From the IMG/VR virus record IMGVR_UViG_3300023116_000045, positions 1-61,981 of that record: a stretch of 61,981 nucleotides of DNA. The stretch is one strand, 5' to 3'. Source of the stretch: a virus. Position 1 is the first letter of the stretch, and each line of letters begins with the position of its first letter. Shown in pieces: positions 46,595 to 53,406 of this stretch. Below the pieces are notes generated by a model. It saw nothing but the letters and a program-made list of their open reading frames with translations. It was not told the DNA's origin and searched no databases. The position numbers and the translations under genes are program-made.

Positions 46595-47892
46595 CAGAAT
46601 CCTCCCTTCTTACCAAACGAGTCTCTGACCAACCCAAGACTGGTGAAACAATCATTGCTTGTAATGCGATGACAGACGTGAGCGACCATATATTTACCAC
46701 CAGTTTGTTTGTTTTTCTCTTTGTTTTCTTTTGCCTCAACCTCTGGGAACGTACACTCAATCATATCTCCTGCCTTAATGCTGAAGTCACCAGGAATAAT
46801 CACATTTGTTTGAACGGTGAACATCTGATTATATCTCATAATGGTCTGAACCATTGTTTCTTCAATCTTGTAATTGTCCTCTGGTTGTTGTTTGAAGTTA
46901 TCCAGTTGCTCATCACCTTTACCTTTTGGATTCACACCGTGATCCTTCAACATATGAAACAGACGACTGGGTTGTGAAATGAATTCTTTATTGACGTTGA
47001 TGTAATCTTTGCCTGCATTCTCTGCAGATCCCTCTTGTTCTTGAATGTCAAAATCAACTTTCTTATATTCCATTTTGTAAAAATCAAAGAAGAGAGACCT
47101 GTTGTTATAAGCACCAAAGGATAAGTTCTGTTCCATGTCAATATCGCTTGCGATCTCATATGAAACGATGTTTCCATCATATTCTGGTGGCAGATCACCT
47201 GTGTTATTATAAATGAATTTCTTAGTTGCGTCTTTTCCAAACAAATCATCAATGGACTTGAAGAACATTCCATCACGAGTCTGGAAGAATAAGAATCCAC
47301 CAGTCTTTTCTGCACCCTTTGTTGGCACTGCTTTGGATGCCAGGGTGGTTACAACATAAAATGGTTTGCGAGTGTTACCATAAAAGTTGTATTCAAATGA
47401 TGTTTCATCAACTTCAACACTTGCAGTTGTCTTAAGAACATCATTCAAAATTTCTTCAACATTGTCTGAGATCTTACCTTCATATCTCTTTGTAACTCTG
47501 GCAGATTCATTCAGAAAGAATTCTTTTGATGCAAATTCAAGAACATAAAGTTCTTGTTGTGTTCCTGGAGAACCATTTCTTACATTCTTGACGTAAAGAC
47601 CACCAGGGATTTCAATTTTATTCTTTTCCTCAGACGCATCAGAAACTTGAATGTTTGTTTTCTCACCACCACGAATGGGAAGGTCGTCTAGGACACCCTT
47701 TGATTCTTTGTCAATATCATTACCAGTTTCCAACACAATCGCTTTCGCTGTGATGAAATTGGAAAGAACGCTCTCGTAATAGTAATATTCCTGAATACCA
47801 TTGGTCAAGTCAATTTGCTTACTCCCTTCATTAGAAGTAATCGTAAATGACTTTATATCACCAGGTCCCGATTGTGGTTTTTGATTTGCCAT
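46594..47892 (-). CDS. gp27-like baseplate hub protein
   Basis: 432 residues: MANQKPQSGPGDIKSFTITS, GIQEYYYYESVL, LEFASKEFFLNESARVTKRY, and a C-terminal FSIKAGDMIECTFPEVEA. The order of strands and the position directly upstream of the gp5-like hub gene (TAATG) match the gp27-type hub ring in T4-like phages and related contractile tails. Confidence 0.7.
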   Translation of the reverse strand: MANQKPQSGPGDIKSFTITSNEGSKQIDLTNGIQEYYYYESVLSNFITAKAIVLETGNDIDKESKGVLDDLPIRGGEKTNIQVSDASEEKNKIEIPGGLYVKNVRNGSPGTQQELYVLEFASKEFFLNESARVTKRYEGKISDNVEEILNDVLKTTASVEVDETSFEYNFYGNTRKPFYVVTTLASKAVPTKGAEKTGGFLFFQTRDGMFFKSIDDLFGKDATKKFIYNNTGDLPPEYDGNIVSYEIASDIDMEQNLSFGAYNNRSLFFDFYKMEYKKVDFDIQEQEGSAENAGKDYINVNKEFISQPSRLFHMLKDHGVNPKGKGDEQLDNFKQQPEDNYKIEETMVQTIMRYNQMFTVQTNVIIPGDFSIKAGDMIECTFPEVEAKENKEKNKQTGGKYMVAHVCHRITSNDCFTSLGLVRDSFGKKGGF

Positions 47893-50003
47893 TACATTTG
47901 ATAAAGGGATCCGAGTCTGCTAGCACGAGACCACATATTATTATTTAACCCACCTGAAGAAGTTGCTCCCGCAGGTTTCTGTTGCATTGGTGGGGTGTTA
48001 TCGATGGGAACAGGGATAACTTTTGGTTTCGGTCTCTGATAAGAAGGAGTTGTGGAAACACTTTGTGCTCTGGTGTCACCTGTGGACGGACTAATCTGAA
48101 CTGTTCCAGACTTTGCTCCTCTGATGTCACCGTGACCTGTTCGCCCAATCTCTTTACCTTGAGCATCATACATTACAACGTAAGCACCATATCTTCCACC
48201 AGAACCATACTGAACAGATCCACCTGCTTCTGTTGGGACAAAGATCTCTGCTCCCTCTGCAGATTTGCCGAATCTAGTTTCACTTGCTTGTGGAATGTAA
48301 TAATCATAAGAAGCATAACCAGCACGAGGAGCGTGAGCACCAGCAGCTGCTTGAAGAAGTGCTGCCTTCTCTTGATAACTCATTGTGTGATCGTATCTTC
48401 TGCCAGCAACTGCCTGATTGGAGAACTCAATGACTCTTCCTTGTTTGGCATATGCCATTGACATCTGGTCAAAGTATTCAACTTTCTTCTGCATTGAAAG
48501 TTCTGATTTCAGTTTAGTGTCAATGTGATACTCGGAACTTCCACCAATGAAACGACTTGCTCCAGTCTTCAGTCCAGTTGCAAATGCTTGACCAGCTTGC
48601 CCCTGCTGCATTGGCGGAACATCATCAATGGTGGTTCTTCTAAACTGAACTCCAAATTTACTTTTTCCACCTCTAATTATGTTTGCTTCATCAGTTCTTC
48701 TGTGCTGGTTGAGTCCTTTACCATCTGGTTGCATGTCGTGCCTTCCAAGACGATTCTCAATGTCATCAGCCAACTTATTGTAATTACCAGTCTTGATACC
48801 TTCCATCACAAGTGCTTTGGTCTTACTATCAAGACTTCCATAGTTGAAAACGATAGATTCCAGAGCAGCCTTCACATTATTGGGAAGTTTGTTGTAATTT
48901 TCTTCTCCAATCTGTCTTGTAAGTCTCCCTCTGTGCTCTCTGATGTGTGCCTCTTTAATTTGGAGTGCCTCTTCTTCAGTAATCACATCTCCCATCTTAA
49001 CAGCGCCTTGGAGTCTAAAACCCTTAGGATAATAAGTTGCACCCATTCCAATGGTAGGAATTCCTTTTGAATCTTTATATGCTTTTGTTCTAAGTCCCTC
49101 ATAATTCTTGAGAAGTTTTGCCAAATTTCTATCATAAGTGGCATCAGGAGCAGATCCAGGTCCCAGTCTTCCGCCAGGTGCTGGGCGACTTCTGGTTCCA
49201 CCTTGTTGCATTGGCGGAACATCATCAATGTTTCCACTAGACAAATACTTTACTTGTCTTTCGAGTTCTGGGAACATTCCTTCAAACTCTCTGAGTTTTT
49301 CTTTGAGAGTGTCCAATCCTGCTTTAATTGGTGGGAAAGCAGCAATTTCTTTCACCATCTTTGCGCCTTGATTTGCAGTCCACTTGAGGAAACTCCAAAC
49401 AGGAACAAGAACCCAATCTTTTAGAGCATTCCACACAGGTTCGATTACATCTAAAACTTCACCAACAATTCTCTTGATTGTCTCATACTGCTCGACAAGG
49501 AAAGTAACAAGAGATCCCAGTGCGACATTAAACACAAACCTCTTGAACATTTCCAAGAAATTCTGTGCTGGTTTCTTTACAAAACCGAGGGCAGCACCAG
49601 CAACTGCACCTGCAGCAGTACCCAACATATTGCGCTTGGCAATAACCGCTGCTTTTCTTTTCTTTTCCGCTGTTTGTTTCTTGAAACCAACAAAAGACTT
49701 CAGACTTGCCTCAAGACCTGCGGCACTCTGTGCAACATTTTCCAGTGCATTATCCAGGTTAGGATTTCCAGTCTTAGAAACTTTGGGTTTTGCGACTGGA
49801 ACAATAGCAGTTGTGGAAACAGCACCACCAGTCGCATAACCCTCACCTGGTTTGTAATCTGGTCTTCGGTAATCAGCAGGTGGTAATATCTTCTGTGCCA
49901 TCTGCTGTCCAGACTGTGGTTGCTCAGGAGGTTTTGGTGGTTTCTTACCGCCACCCATTCCCTTGGCAATTCCTCCAATAATGCTCGCAATTCCTAATGC
50001 CAT
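47892..50003 (-). CDS. tail protein with lysozyme domain
   Basis: 703 residues in modules. Residues 85-245 are a helical, membrane-active region resembling the neighbouring tape-measure-like protein (FKKQTAEKKRKAAVIAKRN; KKPAQNFLEMFKRFVFNVAL). Residues about 290-460 are a T4-lysozyme/GH24 domain with E302 (YEGLRTKAYKD), D311 and T317 (GIPTIGMGATY). The C-terminal domain contains HAPRAGYASYDYY and GAYVVMYDAQGKEI. A linker motif, IDDVPPMQQ, occurs three times between modules. It likely opens the peptidoglycan during DNA entry. Confidence 0.75.
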   Translation of the reverse strand: MALGIASIIGGIAKGMGGGKKPPKPPEQPQSGQQMAQKILPPADYRRPDYKPGEGYATGGAVSTTAIVPVAKPKVSKTGNPNLDNALENVAQSAAGLEASLKSFVGFKKQTAEKKRKAAVIAKRNMLGTAAGAVAGAALGFVKKPAQNFLEMFKRFVFNVALGSLVTFLVEQYETIKRIVGEVLDVIEPVWNALKDWVLVPVWSFLKWTANQGAKMVKEIAAFPPIKAGLDTLKEKLREFEGMFPELERQVKYLSSGNIDDVPPMQQGGTRSRPAPGGRLGPGSAPDATYDRNLAKLLKNYEGLRTKAYKDSKGIPTIGMGATYYPKGFRLQGAVKMGDVITEEEALQIKEAHIREHRGRLTRQIGEENYNKLPNNVKAALESIVFNYGSLDSKTKALVMEGIKTGNYNKLADDIENRLGRHDMQPDGKGLNQHRRTDEANIIRGGKSKFGVQFRRTTIDDVPPMQQGQAGQAFATGLKTGASRFIGGSSEYHIDTKLKSELSMQKKVEYFDQMSMAYAKQGRVIEFSNQAVAGRRYDHTMSYQEKAALLQAAAGAHAPRAGYASYDYYIPQASETRFGKSAEGAEIFVPTEAGGSVQYGSGGRYGAYVVMYDAQGKEIGRTGHGDIRGAKSGTVQISPSTGDTRAQSVSTTPSYQRPKPKVIPVPIDNTPPMQQKPAGATSSGGLNNNMWSRASRLGSLYQM

Positions 50004-50006
50004 GGT

Positions 50007-51821
50007 TTATGAAGGTGAGTTGTAAACACCAGAGGTCATAAAGATGTTATCGTTCGTCAGATCGACCGCAGAGAACGAGGGTGCTTCCTGTTGGTCAGCC
50101 GAAGCACCAGCAGTCATTCCACCATTTGCCATAGCAGCTTTCAGTTCTTCCATCTGAGAAACAGTTGATCCACCACCAAAATAATCAACAGCGGAAAGAT
50201 TCATTTCCTGCAACTTTTGTGTTTGTAATTGGGTTCTCTTGATGTCACCAGTAATTTTGCTGTAAGTGGCATCTTTCTGTGCAGTGGACTTAATGTCAAA
50301 TGAAGGTGGTTTCACGGAAGGAATTCCAAGTTCATGATCAAATTCCAGTTGAGATACATCATATCCCTCAAACATTCCACCTGGTTGAGTAGATTTCAAG
50401 ATTTCGGCATCAACTTGTGCCTGGGTCATGCCGCTGCCATATGTGGCTTCTTGTAAATTTGCACCTAGGTTTGACAATGCTCCTGAAAGACCAGTTCCAG
50501 GTTTCTCAAAATGAGTATCATCTTTTTCTACTCTTCCCTCACGCATCTGAAGTTGTTTCAAATCTTGATCTGTAATTCCCAACTTTTGGAACAACTCAGT
50601 CACTTTCTTCTGTTGTTCTGCTTTCTTCTTCTCCAGTTCGGGAATTACTTTATCAAATCTGATATCACCACTTGCTTGTGCTTGTTTCTTATTATAAAGA
50701 TCATCATTGATGCGTTTCTGTTCCTTCATCGCATCCATCAAATCATCAAATGGTTTGCTCTGCTGTTGAATAACTTCAGATGACATTCCACTCATTGTCA
50801 TAAAAGTTTTTCTTTCTTCTCTCAGATCCTGAATGTCTGAGAATGAGAACTGATTTCCTGCCGCTGTTGTTCCTTTTCCACCGATGAGTTCTTGACCTGC
50901 AAGTTCAACCTTTTGACCAACATCTGCGATTGCTTTTGTTCCTGCAATAATTCCCAATCCAGCAAGAACAACTGGATTTGTTGCCAGTGAAACAACAAGA
51001 CCCAAGAGTGTAGTGGTAAGAGAAATAAGAGTTGTGATCAATCCAGCAAGTTTTATTCCAATTCCAATACCCAGGAGAGCAATGATTCCTGTCATAATCT
51101 TGCCCATATGTTCTTCAAGGAAATTGAAGACTCCCAAGACCTTATCTTTATTTCCTTCGTCAGTCAACCATCCAACAACTGAACCAGCAGCAACGTTTCC
51201 AAGGAATGTTTTAATTCTGTCAAGAATTCCCATTGCTGGTTTCTTGACAGTGTTAATCACTGGGGAGGTCAATCCTCCAATAAGATCTTTTGCTCCCTTT
51301 AATCTATCTTTTTCTTCATCCTGTCTTTTTGCGGTGACAGCACCTTGTCTTTGTCTCTCGGCAGTTTGTCTCTCAACACCCAGAAGTTCAGTTATTGATT
51401 TCGCAACATTATTAAGTGAATTAGCAACAGCGTTGAGTGAATTTGCAATGACATCAAAGACAGATTTCTTCTGTACTTGTTGCTGTTGTTTATTCTTTGC
51501 ACTTGACGACAGAAGAGTCTGTCCAACCGTGAGTGCTCCTCCTCTAACACCAACACTTCCAGGCAATGCCTTTGGTGAGATGAAGGACTTCGCAGCATCA
51601 ACGCTTGGTTTCCTCGTTCTTCCAGTTCTCCCTGCTCTTACTTTCTTTACTTCTTCAAGGAGAGTGAGAATTCTGTCATCTCCAGCACCCTTAGTCTTAA
51701 ACTGAATGGTTGTGATTGCTTCCTTCAGCGCACTCAGATAACCCTCCTCGGATGAAATGTCATCCAGGTCGAATCCCATCTCCATTAGGATTTCGATTGG
51801 GTCAGCTGCAACCTTAGCCAT
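50007..51821 (-). CDS. tape-measure-like tail protein
   Basis: 604 residues. The central hydrophobic span (MTGIIALLGIGIGIKLAGLI onward, about 235-295) and long amphipathic helices are usual in tape-measure proteins. Positions 125-215 (VERQTAERQRQGAVTAKRQD; FLGNVAAGSVVGWL) resemble the lysozyme-bearing neighbour, indicating an ancient duplication. It directly follows the gp26/frameshift pair, the place a tape measure usually holds. May correspond to gp29. Confidence 0.65.
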   Translation of the reverse strand: MAKVAADPIEILMEMGFDLDDISSEEGYLSALKEAITTIQFKTKGAGDDRILTLLEEVKKVRAGRTGRTRKPSVDAAKSFISPKALPGSVGVRGGALTVGQTLLSSSAKNKQQQQVQKKSVFDVIANSLNAVANSLNNVAKSITELLGVERQTAERQRQGAVTAKRQDEEKDRLKGAKDLIGGLTSPVINTVKKPAMGILDRIKTFLGNVAAGSVVGWLTDEGNKDKVLGVFNFLEEHMGKIMTGIIALLGIGIGIKLAGLITTLISLTTTLLGLVVSLATNPVVLAGLGIIAGTKAIADVGQKVELAGQELIGGKGTTAAGNQFSFSDIQDLREERKTFMTMSGMSSEVIQQQSKPFDDLMDAMKEQKRINDDLYNKKQAQASGDIRFDKVIPELEKKKAEQQKKVTELFQKLGITDQDLKQLQMREGRVEKDDTHFEKPGTGLSGALSNLGANLQEATYGSGMTQAQVDAEILKSTQPGGMFEGYDVSQLEFDHELGIPSVKPPSFDIKSTAQKDATYSKITGDIKRTQLQTQKLQEMNLSAVDYFGGGSTVSQMEELKAAMANGGMTAGASADQQEAPSFSAVDLTNDNIFMTSGVYNSPS

Positions 51822-51987
51822 TTTGACGCATCTTTTCGTTTTCTTCTTCGATGTGTTGCTGGAGAAGTGCTACATAAATGTCCCTTTCCCAGGGCATTAG
51901 ATTCTCAATCTCAGTCAAAGAGTATTTATGGTACTGTAGGAGGGCAAAATTAAGTTTGAAGTAATTTTCCAGATCCATATGGATCAT
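51814..51987 (-). CDS. 57-residue tail chaperone-like protein (gp51 position)
   Basis: MIHMDLENYFKLNFALLQYH ... ENLMPWERDIYVALLQQHIE. The LMPWERxIYxxLL motif is typical of the second tail-assembly chaperone in many tailed phages. Its frame is -1 relative to gp26, and the two can be joined at a TTTTTTC slippery site just before the gp26 stop, so it may be made mainly as a gp26 fusion. By order it occupies the gene 51 position. The independent ATG at 51987 has no good Shine-Dalgarno sequence. Confidence 0.7.
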   Translation of the reverse strand: MIHMDLENYFKLNFALLQYHKYSLTEIENLMPWERDIYVALLQQHIEEENEKMRQNG

Positions 51988-52002
51988 ACCTATGCGAAAA
52001 AA
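51972..52002 (-). promoter_or_regulatory. putative programmed -1 frameshift site
   Basis: T-TTT-TTC slippery heptamer at 51996-52002 in the gp26 frame, 10 bases upstream of the perfect palindrome GATCCATATGGATC (51972-51985), which can fold as a small hairpin. A -1 slip bypasses the TAG at 51990-51992 and continues into the 57-codon frame. Confidence 0.6.
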
Positions 52003-52709
52003 GACTGCAAACCCTCCAACACGACAGAACTCTTTACACCAGTCTTTGGATTAGTCACCTCAACGGTGTGACTCAGTTTCGGCATTGTGTCAAAGAACTT
52101 TTCAATCTGCTTAAACTGAGAGGAGTTCATTTGTTCTAAGAACTCAACCAATTCTTTCTTAGTGCAGTCTTGTGCTGCCCAAACTTCTTCCTCGTTGTAG
52201 ATCTTATCGATGCAGGATGCAATCAGTTCAAATGATTGGTCCAGTGTGGCATCACCGCCAAAGTCAAAGTTATTCTTAATGAATTGATCAAGAGATGGAT
52301 ACTTCATATCCATCATCAAAGTGTCATCCAACTGAATTCTCTTATTGTGGTCCTCACTTTCCTGAACCTCAATCTCTTCGATGTCAAGAGTGATGTCAAT
52401 TGGAGTTACTCCGTCATCAGGAGCAGTGATGGTCACATCAACAATCTCACCAACAGACTTCGCACGAATATTAAGAAACAAGAATTCAATGTCAAAGGTT
52501 GGAAGAGTCTCAATCTTTACTCCTCTGGATTGGATGCAACCTTTCAGAACCTGCTTGATTGCGGTTGTGATTTGCTTTGTATCTTGAGTCTCCAAAGCAA
52601 GAACCAGAAGTTTCTCTTCCTTCACCAGGAAGGGACGATATTTGATTGTCTTCTTTGTCGAAGGCAGTTTCAACTCATAAGAAGGAGTTGCAATTGTTGG
52701 TAAAGGCAT
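51990..52709 (-). CDS. gp26: gp26-family baseplate hub/assembly protein
   Basis: 239 residues. The N-terminus (LPTIATPSYELKLPSTKKTI then YRPFLVKEEKLLVLALET) is the T4 gp26 (T4_baseplate) family start, and the helical C-terminus ends PKTGVKSSVVLEGLQSFFA. By position, upstream of the tape-measure-like gene and with a frameshift signal at its end, it behaves like the first tail chaperone (lambda gpG role). Late box 17 bases upstream. Confidence 0.8.
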   Translation of the reverse strand: MPLPTIATPSYELKLPSTKKTIKYRPFLVKEEKLLVLALETQDTKQITTAIKQVLKGCIQSRGVKIETLPTFDIEFLFLNIRAKSVGEIVDVTITAPDDGVTPIDITLDIEEIEVQESEDHNKRIQLDDTLMMDMKYPSLDQFIKNNFDFGGDATLDQSFELIASCIDKIYNEEEVWAAQDCTKKELVEFLEQMNSSQFKQIEKFFDTMPKLSHTVEVTNPKTGVKSSVVLEGLQSFFA

Positions 52710-52726: not shown

Positions 52727-52735
52727 GTTATTTAG
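52727..52735 (-). promoter_or_regulatory. late-promoter-like box CTAAATAAC
   Basis: 17 bases before the gp26 ATG; overlaps the stop of the gene at 52732-53406. Confidence 0.55.
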
Positions 52736-53406
52736 CCGATGACACTCCGTTCACAAACGTAACGAATGTAGTCCAGTCTAACTGAGTAAGACAGTATCTG
52801 ACTGTTATTATAAGATACTACAGAGGGAATGATTGAGAGTGGGAAAGCACCAACGAAGGTGTAATCCAGTCTGTAAGAGGGGGTGTCACCGAGACCAAAA
52901 GTTCTGTTGAGATTATCAACATTCTTCTCGAACTTTGTGATGTAAACTTGATCCGAACGATAAGACTTCGGATAATTCATTCTGTAGTTTGCATACCTGT
53001 CAACATAAGCATTCTGGTCTTGTGCGTTCTTTCCAGCAATGAAATCAATCCACCCCTCAAAGAACTGAACAACATCATACTTATAATTCACATTGAATGT
53101 GAATTGAATTGCTTCATCATATGCTTGTCTGTATGCCATTTTCTCAGACACACCGATGTAATCATTGGCAACATCGATTGTGCTCAACTTATGACCTGGG
53201 AGTCTTGTCTCAGTGCACTGCAGTTCGATTCCCTCACCATCTGCTGCATAATTGACACCTCTTTCATTCAGATAAGCAGCAACCAGAGCAGGTGGTTGAA
53301 TCTTAACTGTGAAGACAGAAGTTTGTGCGAGATTTAGAAATCGACTGGTGAGTTCTGTCGTTCCAACTCTGCGTGGTCTTGGCGCACCAGATCCTGTGGA
53401 TGCCAT
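52732..53406 (-). CDS. tail-tube-fold baseplate protein (gp54/gp19-like)
   Basis: 224 residues. Opens with GTTELTSRFLNLAQTSVFTV, contains LPGHKLSTID and AIQFTFNVNYKYDVVQFFEG, and ends SYSVRLDYIRYVCERSVIG, the strand order of T4 gp19/gp54 tube-type proteins. The gp54 assignment is favoured because it sits by baseplate genes (gp48 is close by on the other strand); gp19-like tube is the alternative. Confidence 0.65.
   Translation of the reverse strand: MASTGSGAPRPRRVGTTELTSRFLNLAQTSVFTVKIQPPALVAAYLNERGVNYAADGEGIELQCTETRLPGHKLSTIDVANDYIGVSEKMAYRQAYDEAIQFTFNVNYKYDVVQFFEGWIDFIAGKNAQDQNAYVDRYANYRMNYPKSYRSDQVYITKFEKNVDNLNRTFGLGDTPSYRLDYTFVGAFPLSIIPSVVSYNNSQILSYSVRLDYIRYVCERSVIG

Follow-up and report, generated by a model that had tools for sequence, protein, structure and literature searches.

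The gp26-type gene of a T4-like marine cyanophage and the 57-codon open reading frame (ORF) behind it very probably constitute a single gene for a tail assembly chaperone, whose two parts would be joined by a programmed -1 ribosomal frameshift. The slip site is retained in nearly all loci compared, its codons run against the genes' own usage, and the -1 frame is conserved in relatives where no start codon could open it. The window, which is the whole stretch analyzed, is an IMG/VR virus record 61,981 bases long; its relevant features are collected in Table 1.

Table 1. Features at and around the gp26 junction in the window.
Feature	Position	Strand	Description
703-aa protein	47892..50003	-	Contains a phage lysozyme domain; follows in the same gene run
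604-aa tape-measure-like protein	50007..51821	-	TM-like segments; start overlaps the -1 ORF end by 8 nt
-1 frame C-terminal domain ORF	51814..51987	-	57 codons from first ATG; phrog_634
Hairpin GATCC-ATAT-GGATC	51972..51985	-	10 nt downstream of heptamer; probable stimulator
gp26-type gene, short form	51990..52709	-	239 aa; PF12322 (T4_baseplate)/phrog_150; stop TAG 51992-51990
Slippery heptamer T TTT TTC	51996..52002	-	Last codons ahead of GCA-TAG; conserved among relatives
GGAGGG, Shine-Dalgarno-like	52012..52017	-	9-10 nt upstream of heptamer; probable stimulator
Tail-tube-like protein	52732..53406	-	PF23849, phrog_45; just upstream of gp26

Architecture of the junction

Inspection of the minus-strand 3' end of gp26 reveals GAG GGT TTG CAG TCT TTT TTC GCA TAG, followed by GTATGATCCATATGGATCTGG. 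The heptamer T-TTT-TTC lies here in the zero-frame register needed for tandem -1 slippage, and reading after a slip becomes TTT TTT CGC ATA GGT ATG ATC CAT ATG GAT CTG, which enters the 57-codon ORF. The predicted fusion product has 298 residues, with its -1 part beginning at the slip site. The first-pass annotation had described these same elements, namely a gp26 frame ending CAG-TCT-TTT-TTC-GCA-TAG, a canonical -1 heptamer from which a slip reads CGC-ATA-GGT-ATG into the 57-codon frame, and a palindrome ten bases downstream. All are present on the minus strand, with the palindrome GATCCATATGGATC beginning 10 nt past the heptamer.

The genes follow in the order tail tube, gp26, small ORF, tape measure, and the location of the pair just upstream of a tape-measure-like gene, as originally remarked for the window, is conserved in relatives. 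In HTVC008M, phiM12, RHph_I1_18 and R11Z, the proteins at the syntenic position have tape-measure PHROG matches. A phmmer comparison of the 604-aa window protein with the tape measures of relatives gave no match, so that a tape-measure role is suggested by its location and its TM-like segments. The lysozyme domain of the neighboring 703-aa protein sits inside a longer protein that adjoins the tape-measure-like gene, and this protein may be the tail-tip lysozyme of the phage.

Conservation of the slip site among relatives

Taken without its conservation, the heptamer could still be a chance occurrence; TTTTTTC occurs 9 times in the window versus 22 expected from shuffling. The first-pass annotation had proposed an alignment of the junction in other cyanophages as a check of its reading, and had named a slip site lost in relatives as evidence against it; both slip site and frame proved to be conserved. 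In 80 IMG/VR loci of close relatives (66-75% identity, tblastn/pattern retrieval), NNT-TTT-TTC-NNN-stop together with a small ORF in the -1 frame is found in 80/80. A wider set of 145 distinct loci retains an in-register T-TTT-TTN in 141, where 131 loci carry TTTTTTC one codon ahead of the stop and the rest carry TTTTTTC, TTTTTTT, TTTTTTA or TTTTTTG at 0-9 codons. Carriers include Pelagibacter phage HTVC008M, P-HM1, Sinorhizobium phiM12 and phiM9, Rhizobium RHph_I1_18, Delftia PhiW-14, Stenotrophomonas Mendera, Desulfovibrio phage 7757, Aeromonas phiAS5 and the KVP40-like Vibrio phage R11Z. This conservation and the internal codon control described below place the slip site well above chance. 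All loci were retrieved with a few queries and share ancestry, and because the 145 are not phylogenetically independent, p-values overstate the evidence.

Four of the 145 loci are exceptions. One (L181:1201-1899), an HTVC008M-like gp26, shares 99% identity with a normal copy but meets an early zero-frame stop far from the gene's end, which probably reflects an error of assembly. The remaining three, from Ackermannviridae or similar phages, have N-TT-TTC.

Within the Ackermannviridae (loci L204, L205, L206, L203 and L100), the last 12 nt of gp26 carry N-TT-TTC-AT[TC]-stop in place of the full heptamer. The gene pair keeps its -1 extension in these loci, with a conserved F-H-L-[IM]-F-E directly past the junction, and N-TT-TTC is possibly a non-canonical slip site. 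The -1 ORF of Klebsiella KP6F1 and Salmonella SFP10 lacks a start before +32 nt and is unannotated.

Codon choice at the slip site

A Phe-Phe pair is conserved at the gp26 end and TTT accounts for 70% of Phe codons, so a heptamer arising as a mere by-product of protein sequence and A+T-rich codon use has to be weighed. The same genes provide an internal control. At the main slip site the pair is written TTT-TTC in 131/131 loci, as opposed to 1/143 of the other Phe-Phe pairs, 96 of which are TTC-TTT. The base preceding the two Phe codons is likewise invariant, since the codon 5' of the pair always ends in T, be it AGT, TCT, GAT, GGT, AAT or GCT (Ser, Asp, Gly, Asn, Ala). The control contradicts chance Phe-Phe codons as the source of the motif, and we regard the by-product explanation as improbable to the point of being negligible.

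The protein encoded across the slip adds a further constraint. The -1 codon spanning the slip (C|GN) encodes Arg in 128/131 loci, and the overlapping zero-frame residue is A, G, V, E, D, S or I. With Arg nearly invariant and the zero-frame residue variable, the -1 reading is under protein selection upstream of both the gp26 stop and any start codon.

Expression of the small ORF

The -1 ORF remains open for 143-203 nt beyond the stop in 140/140 loci measured. Termination at the gp26 stop followed by reinitiation would produce the small ORF separately, and the window offers ATGs shortly past the stop, at 51987 and 51978, in a permissive GTATG context; in 107/140 loci, the window included, the -1 frame has an ATG no more than 30 nt past the stop. 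Against this, 28/140 loci lack any ATG, GTG or TTG in that frame as far as +30 nt, and the Desulfovibrio phage has no start codon in its entire -1 ORF. The conserved block FFRIALLHxxLxxYYExNFAL starts at the slip, also in the 28 start-less loci, and its Arg and other residues upstream of any start codon would be left unexplained by reinitiation. The same is true of slip-site codons held against the gene's own preference and of T4, where both parts are fused. Given the start-less loci, the small ORF cannot in general be expressed by initiating separately, and we reject purely independent initiation. Reinitiation as the source of the small ORF is unlikely on these grounds, although the ATGs at 51987 and 51978 leave room for some separate or coupled initiation in the window.

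By the comparison of loci, the cyanophage "gp51" ORF is no gene of its own and would supply the C-terminal end of the long chaperone form. Elsewhere the -1 frame ORF is annotated as gp51 or as baseplate hub assembly catalyst. The records examined set its start inside the domain (syn9, C48C1), call it hypothetical or omit it, and none of these annotated records presents the pair as one joined gene. In many deposited T4-like phage genomes the gene at this junction is therefore probably listed with a wrong start or left out.

Flanking elements

Two elements flanking the heptamer are probable stimulators. Upstream, the GGAGGG element falls on a Glu-Gly codon pair, and AGGG is used at the matching pair in 110/126 loci versus 36% expected from codon use, a bias whose p-value takes no account of shared ancestry; other Glu-Gly pairs in the same genes use AGGG in 11/37 cases. 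Downstream, local RNA stability peaks just past the stop, with a mean of -6.4 kcal/mol per 32 nt compared to a background of about -1.7. The five-pair stem GATCC/GGATC covaries (for example GGTCC/GGACC, GGTTC/GAACC and AATCC/GGATT), with 25 double-change cells versus 3.5 in shuffles and no slid register near this count. No Rfam family matched at the junction. Since the hairpin in the single window sequence is unremarkable (z -0.34) and its position is not retained in distant families, its role is one that we infer.

These elements also bear on whether RNA polymerase, and not the ribosome, slips on the T run to reach the -1 frame. The run has six Ts, and seven in some relatives, which would suit polymerase slippage. 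Efficient transcriptional slippage, however, generally takes more than six Ts; in most relatives position seven is still C and the run has not lengthened, and the Shine-Dalgarno-like bias and the hairpin suit ribosomal slippage. We consider polymerase slippage very improbable.

Relation to T4 gp26 and gp51

The short form matches PF12322 (E 7.7e-75) and phrog_150 (E 7.7e-81), and the small ORF matches phrog_634 (E 3e-27) and corresponds to phrog_150 positions 241-280. T4 gp51 (249 aa) spans these parts, matching phrog_150 over 13-280 of 282 positions as well as phrog_634, and its sequence is continuous where the cyanophages slip. T4 gp26 matches PF12322 and only the first part of phrog_150; its gene ends GAG-TTC-TTT-GAG-TTA-CTA-TAA and has no slip site. 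T4 gp51 is, on its predicted domain content, a natural fusion equivalent to the long form. T4 needs no slip, since each of its two forms has a paralogous gene of its own. In the window record one PF12322 gene is present, followed by its -1 ORF, and no second PF12322 copy was found. The label "gp51-position gene" first given to the small ORF holds as a statement of position, but T4 gene 26 lies on the minus and gene 51 on the plus strand, in divergent orientation.

Among the loci compared, the two-gene, opposite-strand state occurs only in T4-type Straboviridae. Frameshift forms are found in other Straboviridae (phiAS5, R11Z), and the two-gene state consequently looks derived. In a tree of the shared domain, T4-type gp26 and gp51 form two separate supported groups, as duplication predicts; several long branches make the deeper placement unsure.

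The T4-type paralogous loci (L083, L098 and L192-L201) have gp26 and gp51 on opposite strands, with the C-terminal domain on gp51. One T4-type gp51 gene (L200:2001-2746) is broken near codon 120, a long way from the chaperone junction, by one change of frame that is either a sequencing error or a real mutation.

Searches beyond the family gave little. A PDB sequence search with the gp26 alignment returned nothing convincing (MtrB at E 0.009), and Foldseek found no significant match in the PDB, where the HK97 TAC 2ob9 ranked fifth (E 1.5, probability 0.18). NCBIfam matches were weak and far below cut-offs. Foldseek matches in BFVD were mainly the gp26/gp51 family itself and unnamed phage proteins, and BFVD consequently gives no independent tie of gp26 to lambda-type chaperones.

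Proposed mechanism

Most ribosomes would end at TAG and yield the 239-aa short form, and we infer that at T-TTT-TTC a minority step back by one base, with tRNA-Phe re-pairing from TTT-TTC to TTT-TTT. The slip is probably aided by the internal Shine-Dalgarno-like GGAGGG and the short hairpin. The slipped product would be the 298-aa long form, which acquires the C-terminal domain ...FF-RIG-MIHMDLENYFKLNFALLQYHKYSLTEIENLMPWERDIYVALLQQHIEEENEKMRQNG. Going by lambda gpG/gpGT, the short form may serve to coat the tape measure protein, and the long form to recruit tail tube or hub subunits.

A wider joint reading can be proposed, which we hold to be evenly balanced between right and wrong. Here the junction would be a complete three-part recoding signal, made up of the internal Shine-Dalgarno-like GGAGG, T-TTT-TTC and the covarying hairpin, and frameshifting would be ancestral to the whole T4-like superfamily. 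The two genes of T4 would stem from a duplication within Straboviridae in which one copy fixed the long form and the other the short, and the Ackermannviridae junction would work at a shortened, non-canonical N-TT-TTC.

Comparison with known systems

In phage lambda, G/GT is made as a short form and a long form extended by a -1 frameshift (Levin 1993; Xu 2013, 2014; review PMC5009743). The junction described here shares the predicted short and long forms, a slip site just ahead of the short-form stop and a location between tail tube and tape measure genes, as in the lambda order V-G-T-H. It differs in its heptamer, T-TTT-TTC, and in belonging to a contractile-tailed T4-like phage; the likeness is one of predicted architecture.

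An earlier listing (PMC3004832) counts T4 gp26 and gp51 among the hub assembly chaperones and gives gp51 as essential and of unknown function. As far as the citing papers (PMC10885494, PMC12846349) convey, Vladimirov, Gautam and Davidson (2022, Virology 566:9-15) treat T4 gp26/gp51 as tail-chaperones and describe poly-T slip signals in T4-like phages. The cyanophage proteins are homologous to the T4 pair (PF12322, phrog_150), with T4 gp51 matching the long form; in contrast to T4, with its two divergent paralogous genes, one slip-site gene would here provide both forms. The first-pass annotation had proposed placing T4-like gp26/gp51 in the tail-chaperone class, which gene order, the G/GT-like short/long architecture and gp51 as a long form favor, with the reservation that T4 itself has no frameshift at this point.

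For Vandenendeviridae and Andersonviridae, a tail chaperone with a -1 frameshift at a GTTTTT motif has been described on comparative evidence only (PMC12846349). The shared features are a poly-T slip at the end of a short chaperone ORF, the -1 frame and a location ahead of the tape measure gene. These are other phage families, likened by signal layout, and the motif is T-TTT-TTC here versus GTTTTT there.

The -1 frameshift of E. coli dnaX, a cellular gene, uses an A-AAA-AAG heptamer with a Shine-Dalgarno-like element about 10 nt upstream and a hairpin downstream. The cyanophage junction presents the same succession of upstream element, heptamer and hairpin; dnaX differs in its heptamer and in a far stronger hairpin.

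The literature examined contained neither the evidence on the Shine-Dalgarno-like element and the hairpin nor the internal codon control or the -1 ORFs that lack a start, some of which Vladimirov et al. 2022 may cover. Frameshifted tail chaperones are a kind already known, to which this junction adds the scale of the evidence, probable stimulators and a gap in annotation.
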